This document shows positions 11,587 through 19,619 of a stretch of 49,006 nt of DNA, piece after piece. This DNA is from FCB group bacterium (GTDB lineage Bacteria > Fidelibacterota > Marinisomatia > Marinisomatales > J089). Where the stretch lies: positions 1 to 49,006 of the forward strand of contig JAADFQ010000129.1 in the NCBI GenBank assembly GCA_013152835.1. The letters are read 5' to 3'. The notes beneath the pieces were generated by a model that did not search any database, had not been told where the DNA came from, and worked only from the letters and a program-made list of their open reading frames with translations. A program made the translations under genes and the position numbers. How positions within the stretch are numbered: position 1 is the first letter of the stretch; the number at the start of each line of letters is the position of its first letter.

Positions 11587-12066
11587 CTAATGAAATTTAA
11601 TTTTTAAATACTCCATTACCATTGTGGGAACATAATCGCTGATATCACCATGTAATTTGGCTACATCTTTTACAACTGTTGAATTCAGGTGAATAAATTT
11701 TTCATCAGGCATCATCAGGATGGTTGTGATTTCCGGAGCCAGATGATAATTCATCATTGCCATTTGAAATTCAAATTCAAAGTCCGATACATGACGAAGG
11801 CCCCGAATTAGGGCAACGGCCGATTCATCTTGGGCAAAGGTAGCTACCAGCCCCGGCGTGGATTTCACTTGCACGTTGCGAATATGACGCGTCGATTCCC
11901 GAATGAGTTTCATTCTTTCTTCAACCGTAAACAATGGTTCCTTGGATGGGTTGTCGGCAACACCGAAGATGAGTTGATCGAACAATTTTGACGCACGGGT
12001 GGCAATATCCACGTGCCCGTTGTGGATCGGATCAAAGGTTCCGGGATAAATCACTTTTCTAAGCAT
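11587..12066 (-). CDS. coaD: Phosphopantetheine adenylyltransferase
   Basis: [36 protein letters not shown]. Confidence 0.97.
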
Positions 12067-12580
12067 GTTTTGTCCAGATCATTAACCGGGTGTCTCCATA
12101 CGTACGGATTTGATCACAATGAAAATCCGTATCCTTCCCGTGTGATTCCAGAATGAAGCGCCCTTCCGATGAGAGTTTCTCTAAAGATAATTTAATCAGA
12201 GATTCCTTTTCTCTAAAGTCTAAAAGACGGTATGGCGGGTCGGCAAAAATAATATCTGCGTAATGTGATGAGTTTAAATAATGAAAAGTATCTTCAGCAA
12301 AGAAACGGAACTGTGTTTTGGAAAATTTTTCCGCAGTTACGCGAATCTGTTCAAGACGTTTCCGATGGTTCTCGACAAAATGGACCGGGTCCGCCCCGCG
12401 GCTGGCTGCCTCAAACCCAATAATTCCCGTACCGGAGAATAAATCCACAAAATGAACCTGATCCAGTGGTCCCAATATATCAAATAAACTTTTACGAACC
12501 CGTGACTGTGTGGGACGCACACCTTTACCCAGTCCCGGACCGATTTGAATTCCTTTATACTGTCCGGAGAGTATTCGCAT
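12059..12580 (-). CDS. rsmD: 16S rRNA (guanine(966)-N(2))-methyltransferase RsmD
   Basis: MRILSGQYKG, RPTQSRVRKSLFDIL, DLFSGTGIIGFEAASRGA, IIFADPPYR. Confidence 0.95.
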   Translation of the reverse strand: MRILSGQYKGIQIGPGLGKGVRPTQSRVRKSLFDILGPLDQVHFVDLFSGTGIIGFEAASRGADPVHFVENHRKRLEQIRVTAEKFSKTQFRFFAEDTFHYLNSSHYADIIFADPPYRLLDFREKESLIKLSLEKLSSEGRFILESHGKDTDFHCDQIRTYGDTRLMIWTKHA

Positions 12581-12590
12581 GGTGATGGCT

Positions 12591-14174
12591 CTACGAATAA
12601 ATTGCTATATAGAAAAAGACCGTCGTTTGGCCGGTTAATTTTTGTACTAGGACTTTCCGTAATACTACATTATCCCCCAGTTGAAGGAGGCGGTTCCCGA
12701 TATCCTTTGTATCCTGACTCTTATTCAGCCTGATAATTACCGGCTGGTAATTTCCGGATGGATAGTTGGTCAGCGCAAATGTCCTGACCTGACCAATATT
12801 CCAGTGCTGAATCGAATCCACAGCCGCCGAGGCTTTAATGATTATTCCTGCCGGGGGACTCTCCTCAGGCTCCAATGAGAATACATTTTTTCCCTCGTCA
12901 GAATAAATCTCCACTTTCCCGTCAATCACAGCAAAACCGGATGAGGTCAGCTTCTTTAACCAGGCCGTAGTATAGTTTAACATGCTTACTGAATTTTTCC
13001 GTAAATCTGGTATTGTTGTTCCGGTTTTCACCTGCTGCGGTTTTGCCGCAATGATTCGTTCGGTTCCGTCCCGCTTTGTCGGAAACCATTTGTCCAAATA
13101 TGGATCAGCCAGCCCGGAATAATATATTCCACCAAACAGGAGAATACCGGCTAACAGCCACCAAACAACCGGTGATTTTTTCTTCGGTTGTTCCGTATGA
13201 TTGTTCTGCGTTGGTACAGATTCAGCTTCGCTCTTGGCAGCACGTTCCAAACGTTCCAGGTGGCGTAACCGGGCGTTTTCATCCGGTTCCGGCTCAGGAA
13301 CACTAACCTGATCAAAAAAGTTTAAGATTCTGTCTGTCGACTCCGATTCAATTACCACCGAAAGAACACCTAAATTTCGGTGCAAATCCCGCTTCCACCC
13401 ATGAGCTTCTCCATAGGTTTTCAGTTCAGGATCAAGTTCATGCTTCTGTACCGGGATATTTTTCCAGACATCGGAACGTCCTTCAGGAAGTTCTTCAACA
13501 AACCGGAAGGGAGTTCGGAAGGAAGGACCCTCGAGTAATCGTTCAACTGACTTTGAATCCCCGACTATTGATGCTGCCCGAATAGTGCCGGAATAAAACC
13601 TTATGGATGCCCGGAACGGTAGTGAACCGACACTCCCGGATAACTGGTATGACCGAGGTTCAATAAATGTCCAGATTGAATTCCTGGGATAATCCAGACT
13701 AATCAGGGCTGAGGAAACCGGACTACACGAAATGGACCGCCCACCGGATTGTGTCAAGGATTGCTGAATACTATTCAGAATGCTCCGATCGATACCACTG
13801 ATCCAGATAAAAGAAGAATCGGTTTCGGGATGAAAAGAACAGATTTCATAATATTCAAAAGACTCCGGCCAGGATTGATTAATCCACCATTGGATATAGG
13901 CTTCAATCCCCTCTTCATCCAGACCATCGTCAATCGTAAGGCCACCGGTCATCACCAGATTATCGTCGATCAGGACTTCGATTTCCTGTCCCAGAAATCC
14001 GATTTCAGAAGTAATACTGTTTAAGGTTTCGGAAATTATCCCGGCTGGATTCTTCGATAACAGTAGCTGTTTGTAATAGGGGTTGTCGACGACGCGGGAA
14101 ATATGATATCCCTCCGCGTCCTTCCCCCATTCTATACAGGAAATTGATTTATTGGATATGACGAGTGTAATCAA
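12591..14174 (-). CDS. PilM/GspL-like bitopic protein (cytoplasmic actin-like-type domain, TM helix, C-terminal PilN/GspL-like periplasmic region)
   Basis: N-terminal MITLVISNKSISCIEWG..., EAYIQWWINQSWPESFEYYEI, WISGIDRSILNSIQQSLTQSGG; single TM VVWWLLAGILLFGGIYYSGL; about 150 aa C-terminal domain. Family call inferred from architecture. Confidence 0.5.
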   Translation of the reverse strand: MITLVISNKSISCIEWGKDAEGYHISRVVDNPYYKQLLLSKNPAGIISETLNSITSEIGFLGQEIEVLIDDNLVMTGGLTIDDGLDEEGIEAYIQWWINQSWPESFEYYEICSFHPETDSSFIWISGIDRSILNSIQQSLTQSGGRSISCSPVSSALISLDYPRNSIWTFIEPRSYQLSGSVGSLPFRASIRFYSGTIRAASIVGDSKSVERLLEGPSFRTPFRFVEELPEGRSDVWKNIPVQKHELDPELKTYGEAHGWKRDLHRNLGVLSVVIESESTDRILNFFDQVSVPEPEPDENARLRHLERLERAAKSEAESVPTQNNHTEQPKKKSPVVWWLLAGILLFGGIYYSGLADPYLDKWFPTKRDGTERIIAAKPQQVKTGTTIPDLRKNSVSMLNYTTAWLKKLTSSGFAVIDGKVEIYSDEGKNVFSLEPEESPPAGIIIKASAAVDSIQHWNIGQVRTFALTNYPSGNYQPVIIRLNKSQDTKDIGNRLLQLGDNVVLRKVLVQKLTGQTTVFFYIAIYS

Positions 14175-14182
14175 GTTAAGGA

Positions 14183-14938
14183 CTAACGTTTATCCCAACT
14201 CTTAACTCCATCTTCAATATAACCGTGGTTCGAGGCTTTGAAAGAAAAAATACCATAACGGCGTTCTCGATATTCATCCACAATTGGGCTGGCGATCCTG
14301 AAACTTCCGTCTTCGGAAAGATTAAGATCAAAAGGTTTTCCTGTTAGTGGACAGTAAAGCATGTTGGTATCCGGCATATAGGTGTCGTAATACGTAACGG
14401 CTTCTACCCTTTCCATTGGTGTTTCCGCCACAATTTCACGGAGATTGGGATCATTTTGATATTTTTTTAATTCCCGTTTCTGAATATAGACCGTGTCGAT
14501 CCGGTTGATACTGACATCATAAAGTAAAAGGGTTACAGTTGTATCCTGAATTGTATCCCGGCGTGTTTTTCTAAATCCGAATGTTGTATCAAATTCCGCG
14601 TCAAAACCTTCCGGTACATTTACCGTAAATGATTTGGACTTGAGATACAGGGTTTGTTCATCGAGGAAAGTGGAGTCAGCCATAAGCGAATCCCGGACAG
14701 CATCTACGACCTGAACAGCCGTGGAACCATCCACGTTATAATCACCCAGTAACTCCTTATAAAATTGTTCGATCTGATAAACATTTTCCATGTAAAACCG
14801 ACTTTTGTTGGCATAATAATCTTCTTCTTTCCAGATCTCTACAGGAACATATATCGAGATCACCAGAAAAATAAACGCCAGCACCATCAGCACCTCCAGC
14901 AGGTCGCCGTATCGTTTTTGTATCTTTTCGTCCATCAT
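14183..14938 (-). CDS. Pilin/pseudopilin-like protein with N-terminal hydrophobic helix
   Basis: Short basic leader MMDEKIQKRY then GDLLEVLMVLAFIFLVISIYVPVEIWKEEDYYANKSRFYMENVYQIEQFYKEL, resembling a type IV pilin alpha1 helix; C-terminal YCPLTGKPFDL...NHGYIEDGVKSW. Confidence 0.5.
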   Translation of the reverse strand: MMDEKIQKRYGDLLEVLMVLAFIFLVISIYVPVEIWKEEDYYANKSRFYMENVYQIEQFYKELLGDYNVDGSTAVQVVDAVRDSLMADSTFLDEQTLYLKSKSFTVNVPEGFDAEFDTTFGFRKTRRDTIQDTTVTLLLYDVSINRIDTVYIQKRELKKYQNDPNLREIVAETPMERVEAVTYYDTYMPDTNMLYCPLTGKPFDLNLSEDGSFRIASPIVDEYRERRYGIFSFKASNHGYIEDGVKSWDKR

Positions 14939-14950
14939 ATCTGATTCACC

Positions 14951-15355
14951 TCATAGACTGATATAAGGGCGGATTTTTTCCAACGTCTTTTCACCGATTC
15001 CCTTAATCTTTTTTAATTCATCCGTTGATTTAAAGGGACCATTTGCTTTGCGAAACTCAATAATGCGCTTTGCTGTGACCGGTCCAATCGTCGGGAGCGA
15101 CTCTAATTCTTTACGATTTGCAAGATTAATATTAATGAATTCATCGGGTGGTTTTGTAGTCTTTTCTAAACGGTTATTTTCTGCACTTGTGACGAGTGCG
15201 GTTGTATCCTGAGGGGTTCGTAAAACAGCCATTGGAATCGCTGTTTTGCCACTTCTAACCCAATACCTGCGAACGATACCGGTTATTCCGCCGATGACGA
15301 TGGTTAAGGTAATAAATGTCAGGACCCTCCGCTCCAGTGGGGTAAAAAGAGTCAC
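14951..15355 (-). CDS. ComEA-family helix-hairpin-helix protein
   Basis: TM helix then INLANRKELESLPTIGPVTAKRIIEFRKANGPFKSTDELKKIKGIGEKTLEKIRPYI. Confidence 0.92.
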   Translation of the reverse strand: MTLFTPLERRVLTFITLTIVIGGITGIVRRYWVRSGKTAIPMAVLRTPQDTTALVTSAENNRLEKTTKPPDEFININLANRKELESLPTIGPVTAKRIIEFRKANGPFKSTDELKKIKGIGEKTLEKIRPYISL

Positions 15356-15357
15356 GG

Positions 15358-16485
15358 TTATAATTCAACTTTTGAAAATTTCGGTTTAGAATCAGGTGAA
15401 GATTTAATAAAATCTTCGAGGAGTGATTTTTGTTGGCGATTCAAGGATTTGGGAGTCGTTACTTGAACACGGACCAGTTGATCACCTACCCCCCTCCCAT
15501 GTAATCGTGGAAGTCCTTTCCCCCTCATCCGTAACACCTGTCCGGATTGAATGCCGGAAGGAATTTTCAGGGAGGCGTGCCCATCAACAGTCGGGATTTT
15601 TATTTCGGTTCCAAGAGCTGCTTCAGCAAATGAAATTTGGGCTTCAATGAAAATATCCGCATCGTTTCGGGAAAAGAAGGGATGATCTTCTTCATCAAAA
15701 ATTACTACCAGATCTCCCGGATGAATATTTTTACCGCCCTGGTTTCCCTGACCTTCCAGGGTCATGTAATTCCCGGCCTGAACTCCTTTGGGAATATTTA
15801 TTTTTATTGTTGCTGATTTCCGTTCAACCCCATTACCTCTGCATACGGTACAAACCTGTTCGATAACTTCTCCGCTCCCCTGACAAACCGGACAGTCACT
15901 GACAACAATGGATTGCCCGAAAAAGGACTGGGAAACCTGCCGAACCTGACCCGAACCGCCACAATGTTTGCAACGAACAGCAGAGGTTCCTTTACGGGCG
16001 CCGGTTCCATTACAGGTAGAACAAATTTCATTTCGTTTTATTCGAACCTGTTTTTCCACTCCATGCAATATTTCTTTATAGGTCAATTTCAGGGTGACCC
16101 GTAAATCCCGTGCCTTGCGAATAGACCGGCCGGATCGGGAGCGTCGCCCTCCAAAGATCTCTTCAAAGGGATTATTGCCACCGAAGATATCTCCGAATTG
16201 ACTAAATATATCGTCCATGGACATATGGAATCCGCCAAATCCACCTCCGCCCGCATTATCGCCCAGTCCCACGCCGGCATGTCCGAACCGGTCATAATTG
16301 GATCGTTTGGATGAATCACTTAATATGGAATAGGCTTCCGCAGCTTCTTTGAATTTCTGTTCAGCTTCTTTATCACCCGGATTTTTATCCGGATGAAACT
16401 TCATGGCAATTTTACGGTAGGCTCTCTTGATATCATTTTCAGAGGCCGATTTGGAAACCCCCAGAACATCATAGAGATCTTTCAT
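15358..16485 (-). CDS. dnaJ: Chaperone DnaJ
   Basis: J domain with HPD (MKFHPDKNPGD), Gly/Phe-rich region, four CxxCxGxG-type zinc motifs. Confidence 0.97.
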   Translation of the reverse strand: MKDLYDVLGVSKSASENDIKRAYRKIAMKFHPDKNPGDKEAEQKFKEAAEAYSILSDSSKRSNYDRFGHAGVGLGDNAGGGGFGGFHMSMDDIFSQFGDIFGGNNPFEEIFGGRRSRSGRSIRKARDLRVTLKLTYKEILHGVEKQVRIKRNEICSTCNGTGARKGTSAVRCKHCGGSGQVRQVSQSFFGQSIVVSDCPVCQGSGEVIEQVCTVCRGNGVERKSATIKINIPKGVQAGNYMTLEGQGNQGGKNIHPGDLVVIFDEEDHPFFSRNDADIFIEAQISFAEAALGTEIKIPTVDGHASLKIPSGIQSGQVLRMRGKGLPRLHGRGVGDQLVRVQVTTPKSLNRQQKSLLEDFIKSSPDSKPKFSKVEL

Positions 16486-18099: not shown

Positions 18100-18969
18100 T
18101 CAGGTTCGCAAGAATTTTGATACGGCCCGTTGGGCGCTGACGATCCCCACAAAAATCGATACCAGCAACAGGGCAGGCAAAAGCATAGGGTCGGGATTAA
18201 TGTGGAAACGATAACGACTCAATAAAACATTCCCCCACCTTAGCGCGCCCATAGTAAGCCCGTAGGTCAGCAATCCCGCGGTGATCGACAATAATATTGA
18301 TTCCACCATAAATGGTATTTTTATAAACCAACGGGAAGCTCCGATTAGTTGCAGCGACTTCATTAATTCCTGACGCGCATAAGCGGATAAACGAATGGTC
18401 CCGGACATGATAACAATTGTGATCAGCAAGATAACCGCCGCTATAAGGACTTCAATTTTCACCGCCTGTTCATAGGCTTTTTCAATCCTTGTGATTAACC
18501 GTCCCTGATAACTGATTTCATCCACGCCCTCAAGGGCACGAATCTGTCGAATAATTGCCTCGGGATATACCGGTTCTTTCGTATCCCGCACAACATTGAC
18601 AACGCAACTCGGCGGTAATGGATTATATCCCAACATTAATTCCACATCTTCACCAAACTGATCTTTAAATATTCGTTTCGCATCATCCGAAGTAATGATT
18701 GTCGTGGATCGTACTCCTTCGATAGCATCGATTTCACTCTTTAACCGGGACAGATCATCGGTACGTACATCCGGAAGAAAAAAGACTTCAATTTTATATT
18801 TCGATCGTACATACTCGATCAGTTGATGAGAATTTACACCGATAACGAACAAAACACTGAGAACGGCCAGATTCAGAACCATGCTCACTACCGTCGTAGT
18901 CGCTGTCAGTTTATGCCGAACTATATTCCGGATACCCTCCGAAATCAGGAATGCCAAGCGATCCATCAT
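18100..18969 (-). CDS. ftsX: Cell division permease FtsX
   Basis: Four-TM FtsX topology; KYKIEVFFLPDVRTDDLSRLKSEIDAIEGV; overlaps ftsE. Confidence 0.93.
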   Translation of the reverse strand: MMDRLAFLISEGIRNIVRHKLTATTTVVSMVLNLAVLSVLFVIGVNSHQLIEYVRSKYKIEVFFLPDVRTDDLSRLKSEIDAIEGVRSTTIITSDDAKRIFKDQFGEDVELMLGYNPLPPSCVVNVVRDTKEPVYPEAIIRQIRALEGVDEISYQGRLITRIEKAYEQAVKIEVLIAAVILLITIVIMSGTIRLSAYARQELMKSLQLIGASRWFIKIPFMVESILLSITAGLLTYGLTMGALRWGNVLLSRYRFHINPDPMLLPALLLVSIFVGIVSAQRAVSKFLRT

Positions 18970-19619
18970 TCGCCGAGTAACCGTCCCTTTTGCATCTGAA
19001 TCACACGCTGATCCCGTCCTTTGATCAGATTGTAGTCATGAGTGCTCATGAAAATCGTTACGCCATCTTTGTTAATCGAGTCCAACAGCGCAATCAAATC
19101 AAACGATGTTACCGGGTCCAGATTACCGGTAGGTTCATCGGCCAGGATAATATCCGGGTCTTTCACGAGGGCTCGCGCAATACACACCCGTTGTTGTTCC
19201 CCTCCGCTTAACTCCGACGGTTTATGGTTTTCTTTTCCCTTGAGACCTACCTGATCCAGCACTTCGGGTACCAGCGCGGCAATATTGTTTTTCGAATGTC
19301 CCATCACGTGCAAAGGAAGCGCCACATTCTGCGCCACCGAACGATCATCAAGTAAATGATAATCCTGAAAAATCATTCCAATATTCTGCCGAAGTTTTGG
19401 AATCTGTCTCCGTTTGATTTTATTGGAATAATACCCATCAATTTCCACAACCCCTTTATTCGGAATTAGATCCATATAGATCATCCGCATCAGCGTTGTT
19501 TTCCCGCATCCGGTTGGACCAATCAGAAATACAAAATCACCCTCACGGATTTGAAAACTAATATCATAGATTCCTCCTCCGCGGCGAAATTCATATGTGA
19601 CGTGTTGAAATTCTATCAT
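18966..19619 (-). CDS. ftsE: Cell division ATP-binding protein FtsE
   Basis: Walker A GPTGCGKTTLM, LSGGEQQRVCIARAL, Walker B DIILADEPTGNLDP. Confidence 0.94.
   Translation of the reverse strand: MIEFQHVTYEFRRGGGIYDISFQIREGDFVFLIGPTGCGKTTLMRMIYMDLIPNKGVVEIDGYYSNKIKRRQIPKLRQNIGMIFQDYHLLDDRSVAQNVALPLHVMGHSKNNIAALVPEVLDQVGLKGKENHKPSELSGGEQQRVCIARALVKDPDIILADEPTGNLDPVTSFDLIALLDSINKDGVTIFMSTHDYNLIKGRDQRVIQMQKGRLLGE

Follow-up and report, generated by a model that had tools for sequence, protein, structure and literature searches.

During our analysis of a 49,006-nucleotide stretch of DNA (the window) from a bacterium of the phylum Candidatus Neomarinimicrobiota (Marinisomatota) we considered three adjacent minus-strand genes, which a first-pass annotation had recognized as comEA followed directly by genes for a 251-residue protein (here X) and a 527-residue protein (here Y). 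Open reading frames and matches to the HHH_3 and comE domain models bore out this arrangement, with comEA at 14951..15355, X at 14183..14938, and Y, which has a TTG start, at 12591..14174. The genes belong to a tight, operon-like run, hrcA-grpE-dnaJ-comEA-X-Y-rsmD-coaD, in which neighbors overlap or are separated by 2–12 nt. The flanking operon context, supported by synteny, is dnaJ upstream (15358..16485, minus strand; named from its translation) and rsmD downstream (12059..12580, minus strand; Cons_hypoth95, 1.1e-30). ComEA has a normal architecture of a transmembrane (TM) segment and a helix-hairpin-helix, with good matches to HHH_3 (8.5e-22) and comE (3e-22; 78.9 bits, under that model's full-length cut-off of 152.35 bits), and from its synteny we regard it as an operon neighbor that is not obligatory. 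Two genes at 18100-19619 of the window, which we take from their translations to be FtsX- and FtsE-like, are members of the same conserved cluster.

The AF2 model of X (pLDDT 88.6) begins with a 61-residue helix (residues 4-64; 14747..14929, minus strand), the start of which contains the TM segment (about residues 13-31), and strands follow it. In the window protein Glu15, Pro32, and Tyr60 correspond to pilin positions +5, +22, and +50. The proline is invariant in X and aligns with P22 of pilins, therefore Glu15 is +5 and Gly11 of the window protein is +1, not -1. The first-pass annotation had described X as having an uncleaved pilin-like alpha1 in which the glycine was incorrectly spaced for cleavage, and both points were upheld by the register across 68 homologs and by profile matches to pilins. 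Gly11 is replaced by S, N, R, H, or T in homologs, and since the alignment showed no glycine at -1 in any of the 68 members, X has no class III cleavage site. Position +5 was polar in all 68 (E in 41, D in 13, and N, S, K, or T in the rest); Glu at +5 and P22 are strict within the order to which the window belongs, and outside it +5 may also be D, N, S, K, or T. Positions +50, +55, and +57 were mostly an aromatic residue, Gly or Asp, and an aromatic residue in these homologs, which is the spacing of pilins and GspG.

Searches with X alone found nothing in Pfam, and nothing in NCBIfam or among PDB sequences with an E-value better than 0.1. Structure searches, proposed in the first-pass annotation for both proteins, were informative for Y (see below) and failed for X, as Foldseek found no fold relative of the X model in the PDB below E 0.1, the best match being at E 0.1. 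Profiles gave a clearer signal. The A2 profile of X had four matches among PDB sequences, including a geopilin and two PilA, and a phylum-wide profile of the X alpha1 (A4) searched against 177,635 PDB sequences placed PilA first (0.0046) and GspG third (0.34), with the matches falling in mature-pilin numbering, 3-59 on 3-59. Among the comparisons of the alpha1 profile that included the phylum's own pilins, the best was to a class III pilin of the same genus (27.6 bits; E 1.4e-5 in a PDB-size search space), which was ungapped over 61 residues. The second best was to E. coli GspG, for which the score of 18.1 bits compared with 0.9 +/- 2.4 for column shuffles, and none of 150 shuffles equaled it. 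Scrambling the hydrophobic core changed the X-GspG score little, whereas scrambling +23..+66 removed most of it, so the signal shared by X and pilins is not only hydrophobicity. By hhalign the X alpha1 and pilins gave a P of 0.0018 and a probability of 6%. Judging from these comparisons, X is very probably derived from a pilin.

The remainder of X (residues 65-251; 14186..14746, minus strand), defined by alignments A1/A2 and by beta strands in the model, is predicted to be extracytoplasmic from the basic N-terminus and acidic flank of the protein. Its C-terminal end carries a conserved HGYIxDGxxSW in both alignments. We considered homology of this end to the C-terminus of GspG, a guess that we do not claim; X had no match to the GspG model (PF08334), which itself was scarce in the phylum (3 of 101 genomes). 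In one family (f19) X contains NRFPxSPEEA, the counterpart of which in GspG is GRYPTTEEGL. Within the order, X proteins were 34–74% identical to that of the window. Enlarged X proteins of 709–745 residues occur in families f20, f21, and f26 (L221:6356-8590, L222:6140-8374, L226:5906-8119, L227:5628-7835, and L230:3441-5570), and in several of the f21 proteins the middle of the X model (about 57-204) matched a second internal site, as if the head were repeated in tandem. Separately, f19 proteins have a receiver-like stretch (L223:6083-7039, L224:6058-7257, and L225:5774-6784; that of L225 matched Pfam Response_reg with an E-value of 7.4e-4, below the cut-off), which, oddly, would sit outside the membrane in the orientation predicted for X.

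Y was modeled by AF2 (pLDDT 81.5) as an N-terminal actin-like domain, one TM helix, and a C-terminal alpha/beta domain. The best Foldseek match was to PilM (5eou, 3.7e-12), with PilM 2ych also among the best PDB matches; GspL cytoplasmic domains followed (1yf5, 2.9e-10; 4pht; 5tkw), and FtsA came next after these (3wt0, 2.4e-7). The first-pass view of Y as a PilM/GspL-like protein with one TM segment and a C-terminal domain was thus confirmed. In single-protein searches of Pfam, NCBIfam, and PDB sequences the sole lead was a sub-threshold match to PilM_2 (E 0.0085; 15.5 bits against a gathering score of 27); a split homolog of Y at the orthologous locus in f19 passed this model (42.1 vs 27 bits). 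Residues 1-265 (13380..14174, minus strand) are assigned as the PilM-like actin-fold domain from the model, Foldseek, and a profile match. This domain is without the nucleotide motif DxG, which occurred within the first 25 residues in 0 of 42 Y proteins, whereas D8 and G10 are invariant in the phylum's canonical PilMs. The TM helix (residues 336-354; 13113..13169, minus strand) was placed from the hydrophobic maximum and the helix in the model, and residues 388-527 (12594..13013, minus strand) from the model and a profile match as a PilN-like extracytoplasmic alpha/beta domain.

The relationship to PilN emerged from relatives in which Y is not one gene. In the outer lineages f3, f4, f5, and f7, as in the majority of the other families read, two adjacent genes stand in place of Y. 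One encodes a PilM-like protein of ~300 residues, often with a PilM/FtsA-type tail (QFxEVxGLxxR), and the other a bitopic protein of about 100–455 residues with a PilN-type N-terminal peptide followed by one TM segment. An xNLL-type opening is typical of PilN, in which this peptide docks on PilM; the split PilN-like proteins open with MIRINLL, MISVNLL, MKINLL, MVKVNLL, MFDINLL, or MPDINLF, with N5 nearly invariant, and the phylum's canonical PilNs with a similar motif in which I7, N8, and L9 are invariant. In most fused Y proteins an xNLF/NFF motif lies ~50 residues ahead of the TM segment, although our pattern found none in f15 members; in the window this is LNFF (residues 284-287; 13314..13325, minus strand), an internal counterpart of the PilN N-terminal xNL(L/F) peptide.

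Profile comparisons linked the two states. The split PilM-like family matched canonical PilM profiles over the full length (probability 92.5%, E 4.8e-7), and PilM_2 matched 3 of 21 split homologs at E ≤ 1 (best 7.3e-11), with a loose DxG pattern anywhere in the protein matching 4 of 21. The N-terminus of Y matched the split PilM-like family (E 1.1e-28) and its last ~52 residues the split PilN-like family (E 4.6e-6). Direct sequence matches were poor: the fused-Y profile had no significant match to canonical PilM (E 0.22), and that of the split PilN-like family to the canonical PilN profile was not convincing (E 0.008, probability 5%), while one split PilN-like member matched PilO (0.0009). Y is a PilM-PilN fusion with a GspL-like layout, a conclusion that comes from the structure match, the split intermediates, and the PilN-type peptide, not from direct sequence matches. 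The fused platform protein of the first-pass annotation is therefore refined to PilM plus PilN and applies to fused members, the two being separate in outer lineages. X is much better conserved than Y, which showed 13–19% identity in the A3 alignment and 39% within the same genus. Elsewhere in the window's own genome, a canonical PilM match (G000:C237:58107-59168) lies in a 1014-residue open frame, possibly another PilM fusion.

X was found in 96 of 101 genomes of the order (own genome included), and by profile in 189 of 199 genomes of the phylum, with none of its 76 genera lacking it. The order dnaJ-comEA-X-Y-rsmD was conserved at 20 loci of the order and at 27 loci of other families, and in a separate genome collection a Y-family ORF lay right after X at 53 of 58 loci, so that the pair is not a chance association, and its linkage in relatives, a check proposed in the first-pass annotation, is conserved. 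The X-Y pair is a phylum-wide core locus. The exceptions were informative: at f12 loci L075, L087, and L111 comEA and X are present and rsmD directly follows X, with Y missing at the locus; at L228 and L229 (f16/g52) X is present and both comEA and Y are missing; and at the f15 loci L045, L046, and L050 X and Y are kept and comEA is missing. At L089 the contig ends after X, and at L078 no long ORF follows X. Since X stays while comEA or Y is lost, X is the core and ComEA a neighbor rather than a necessary partner, and X may not need Y, given its presence without Y at the f12 and f16/g52 loci. As to homologs beyond the phylum, the loci found in one GTDB scan with a single peptide pattern, which is blind to divergent relatives, were all labeled Neomarinimicrobiota/Marinimicrobia or uncultured bacterium.

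The absence of an ATPase, PilC/GspF, and secretin seen in the first-pass annotation is true of the locus, in which we found no core of a type IV filament (T4F) machine (ATPase, platform protein, peptidase, pilin), but not of the genome, which has full T4P/T2SS-type sets on contigs C84 and C237: two PilB/GspE-type ATPases, PilT homologs, GspF, prepilin peptidase, secretins, and class III pilins. The T4P locus on C84 encodes a canonical PilM and PilN of its own. The telling fact is instead that X occurs in genomes without detectable T4F sets. In ten X-bearing draft genomes of f15 (0.8–1.0 Mb, 85–98% complete), T2SSF, A24 peptidase, N_methyl pilin, and secretin all had no match, and T2SSE gave only sub-cut-off matches in 8 of the 10, the search having left out G062 and G065. 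For G015, G025, and G050 of this set, corresponding to L045, L046, and L050, Y was seen at the locus, as it was in further f15-type loci of the separate collection. Likewise, X-bearing genomes G041, G057, G027, G040, and G005 had no T2SSE match above the cut-off and none to T2SSF, A24, or N_methyl. Y, fused or split, is present at the X locus in L035, L045, L046, L048, and L050. Although draft genomes can never prove an absence, ten genomes and five families agree here, which makes a strong case that the T4F core is missing. Secretin domains occur without a T2SSE, T2SSF, or peptidase match in three genomes (G041:C38:4905-5405, G057:C29:35232-35732, and G027:C7:526-1014).

We consider it fairly probable that X and Y are T4F-derived parts that split from their machine and became established throughout the phylum as a core module of the inner membrane, and they probably now serve some job other than a pilus. 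The best reading is a motorless inner-membrane complex that makes no filament and has no obligatory role in DNA uptake, the latter because comEA was lost in f15. In such a complex X would be a GspG/PilA-type pilin that lost its prepilin cleavage site and so would remain an anchored bitopic protein, neither extracted nor polymerized. Y joins a PilM-like cytoplasmic domain to a PilN-like bitopic protein, with the PilN-type peptide inside the chain probably docking on the PilM domain of that same chain. The two proteins, for which a contact is predicted purely from gene linkage, may come together as a static inner-membrane complex, in which the actin-fold domain of Y would act as a cytoplasmic adaptor and the head of X, extending into the periplasm, would be the active end, organizing the envelope or positioning a partner; a scaffold or adaptor linking cytoplasm and periplasm in this way is a weak suggestion. 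A broader proposition seems to us about as likely as not: that this is a phylum-defining envelope complex which kept a non-cleavable pilin and PilM-PilN and dropped the motor, platform protein, peptidase, and secretin, a T4F-derived structure functioning without polymerization and belonging to the core genome even in streamlined SAR406 bacteria.

Other readings of the locus fit parts of these data. X might be a bitopic protein unrelated to pilins, its alpha1 likeness (a TM helix and a proline) having arisen by chance beside a PilM-PilN remnant, and the lack of a fold match, Pfam match, and cleavage site, the variability of +5 beyond the order, and the 6% hhalign probability would all agree with this. 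However, pilins topped two PDB profile searches in the same register, the match to the phylum's own pilin and the effect of scrambling +23..+66 speak for a real relationship, and f19 has its NRFPxSPEEA where GspG has GRYPTTEEGL, so we think chance unlikely. It is quite unlikely that X and Y are an accessory or spare platform for a T4P or T2SS encoded elsewhere, acting only with it; the full sets on C84 and C237 favor such a role, but the C84 locus already has its own PilM and PilN, X is retained in f15 (which by itself had already weakened the idea) and in the five other genomes where no T4F core was found, and Y persists at the five loci given above.

An involvement in competence, in which ComEA would bind incoming DNA and X and Y would be the inner-membrane platform, draws support from the position of comEA directly upstream of X in nearly all lineages and from the fact that competence pseudopili belong to T4F. 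Yet comEA, X, and Y come apart, being lost separately: f15 keeps X and Y without comEA, g52 has neither comEA nor Y, and f12 keeps comEA and X without Y. We therefore judge this account very unlikely, and the DNA-handling function raised in the first-pass annotation is unsupported as a general role given the small-genome f15. Finally, Y might be an FtsA-like division or shape actin with X as its membrane partner, as FtsA is the next structural match and ftsE-ftsX (so named from their translations) lie in the same cluster. This is highly improbable: PilM and GspL were better matches, DxG was missing from all 42 Y proteins, the f12 and g52 loci lack Y, and FtsA-family matches were found in 22 of 22 genomes tested, on which ground we also rejected Y as a replacement for FtsA.

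Every T4F system has four core proteins, a pilin, a prepilin peptidase, an extension ATPase, and a platform protein, and PilM-PilN is treated as a later addition (PMC10191384); with the four core proteins missing from the locus, X and Y are not a T4F machine by this definition, though built from T4F parts. Y resembles T2SS GspL in its actin-fold cytoplasmic domain without DxG, linker, single TM helix, and extracytoplasmic alpha/beta domain, and its split state resembles the T4aP PilM-PilN pair in the PilN-type N-terminal peptide, although the sequence is too distant for GspL or PilN models. Unlike GspL, whose cytoplasmic domain contacts the N1 domain of GspE, Y occurs in a setting where several X-keeping genomes have no detected GspE and so no ATPase to anchor, and unlike either system its partner gene encodes an uncleaved pilin-like protein. 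The X alpha1 shares with GspG/PilA the polar +5, P22, Y50, (G/D)55, and Y57 in ungapped spacing; X differs in having no class III signal, in keeping a short basic N-terminus, and in a head that has no recognized match and is larger in some lineages (up to ~745 residues). FtsA likewise has an actin-like fold and a membrane link, but the structural match of Y to it was weaker and real FtsA matches coexist. Among reduced machines the closest parallel is the mitochondrial T2SS (miT2SS), a T4F machine cut to a partial set that has GspD, E, F, and G and no prepilin peptidase or L/M/C (PMC10128026). The selection of parts in X-Y is the opposite, a pilin-like and an L-like part with no D, E, or F.

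Our search of the open-access literature turned up no description of a module of this kind, an absence that is weak evidence. If our reading is true, a motor-free module that retains a pilin-like protein together with PilM and PilN parts would stand as a clear example of the reuse of a T4F machine. The presence of X in every genus tested, and in genomes of 0.8–1.0 Mb, suggests an important, unstudied envelope function in a widespread phylum of mostly marine bacteria, and the natural split and fused variants of Y offer a direct route to testing PilM-PilN docking.
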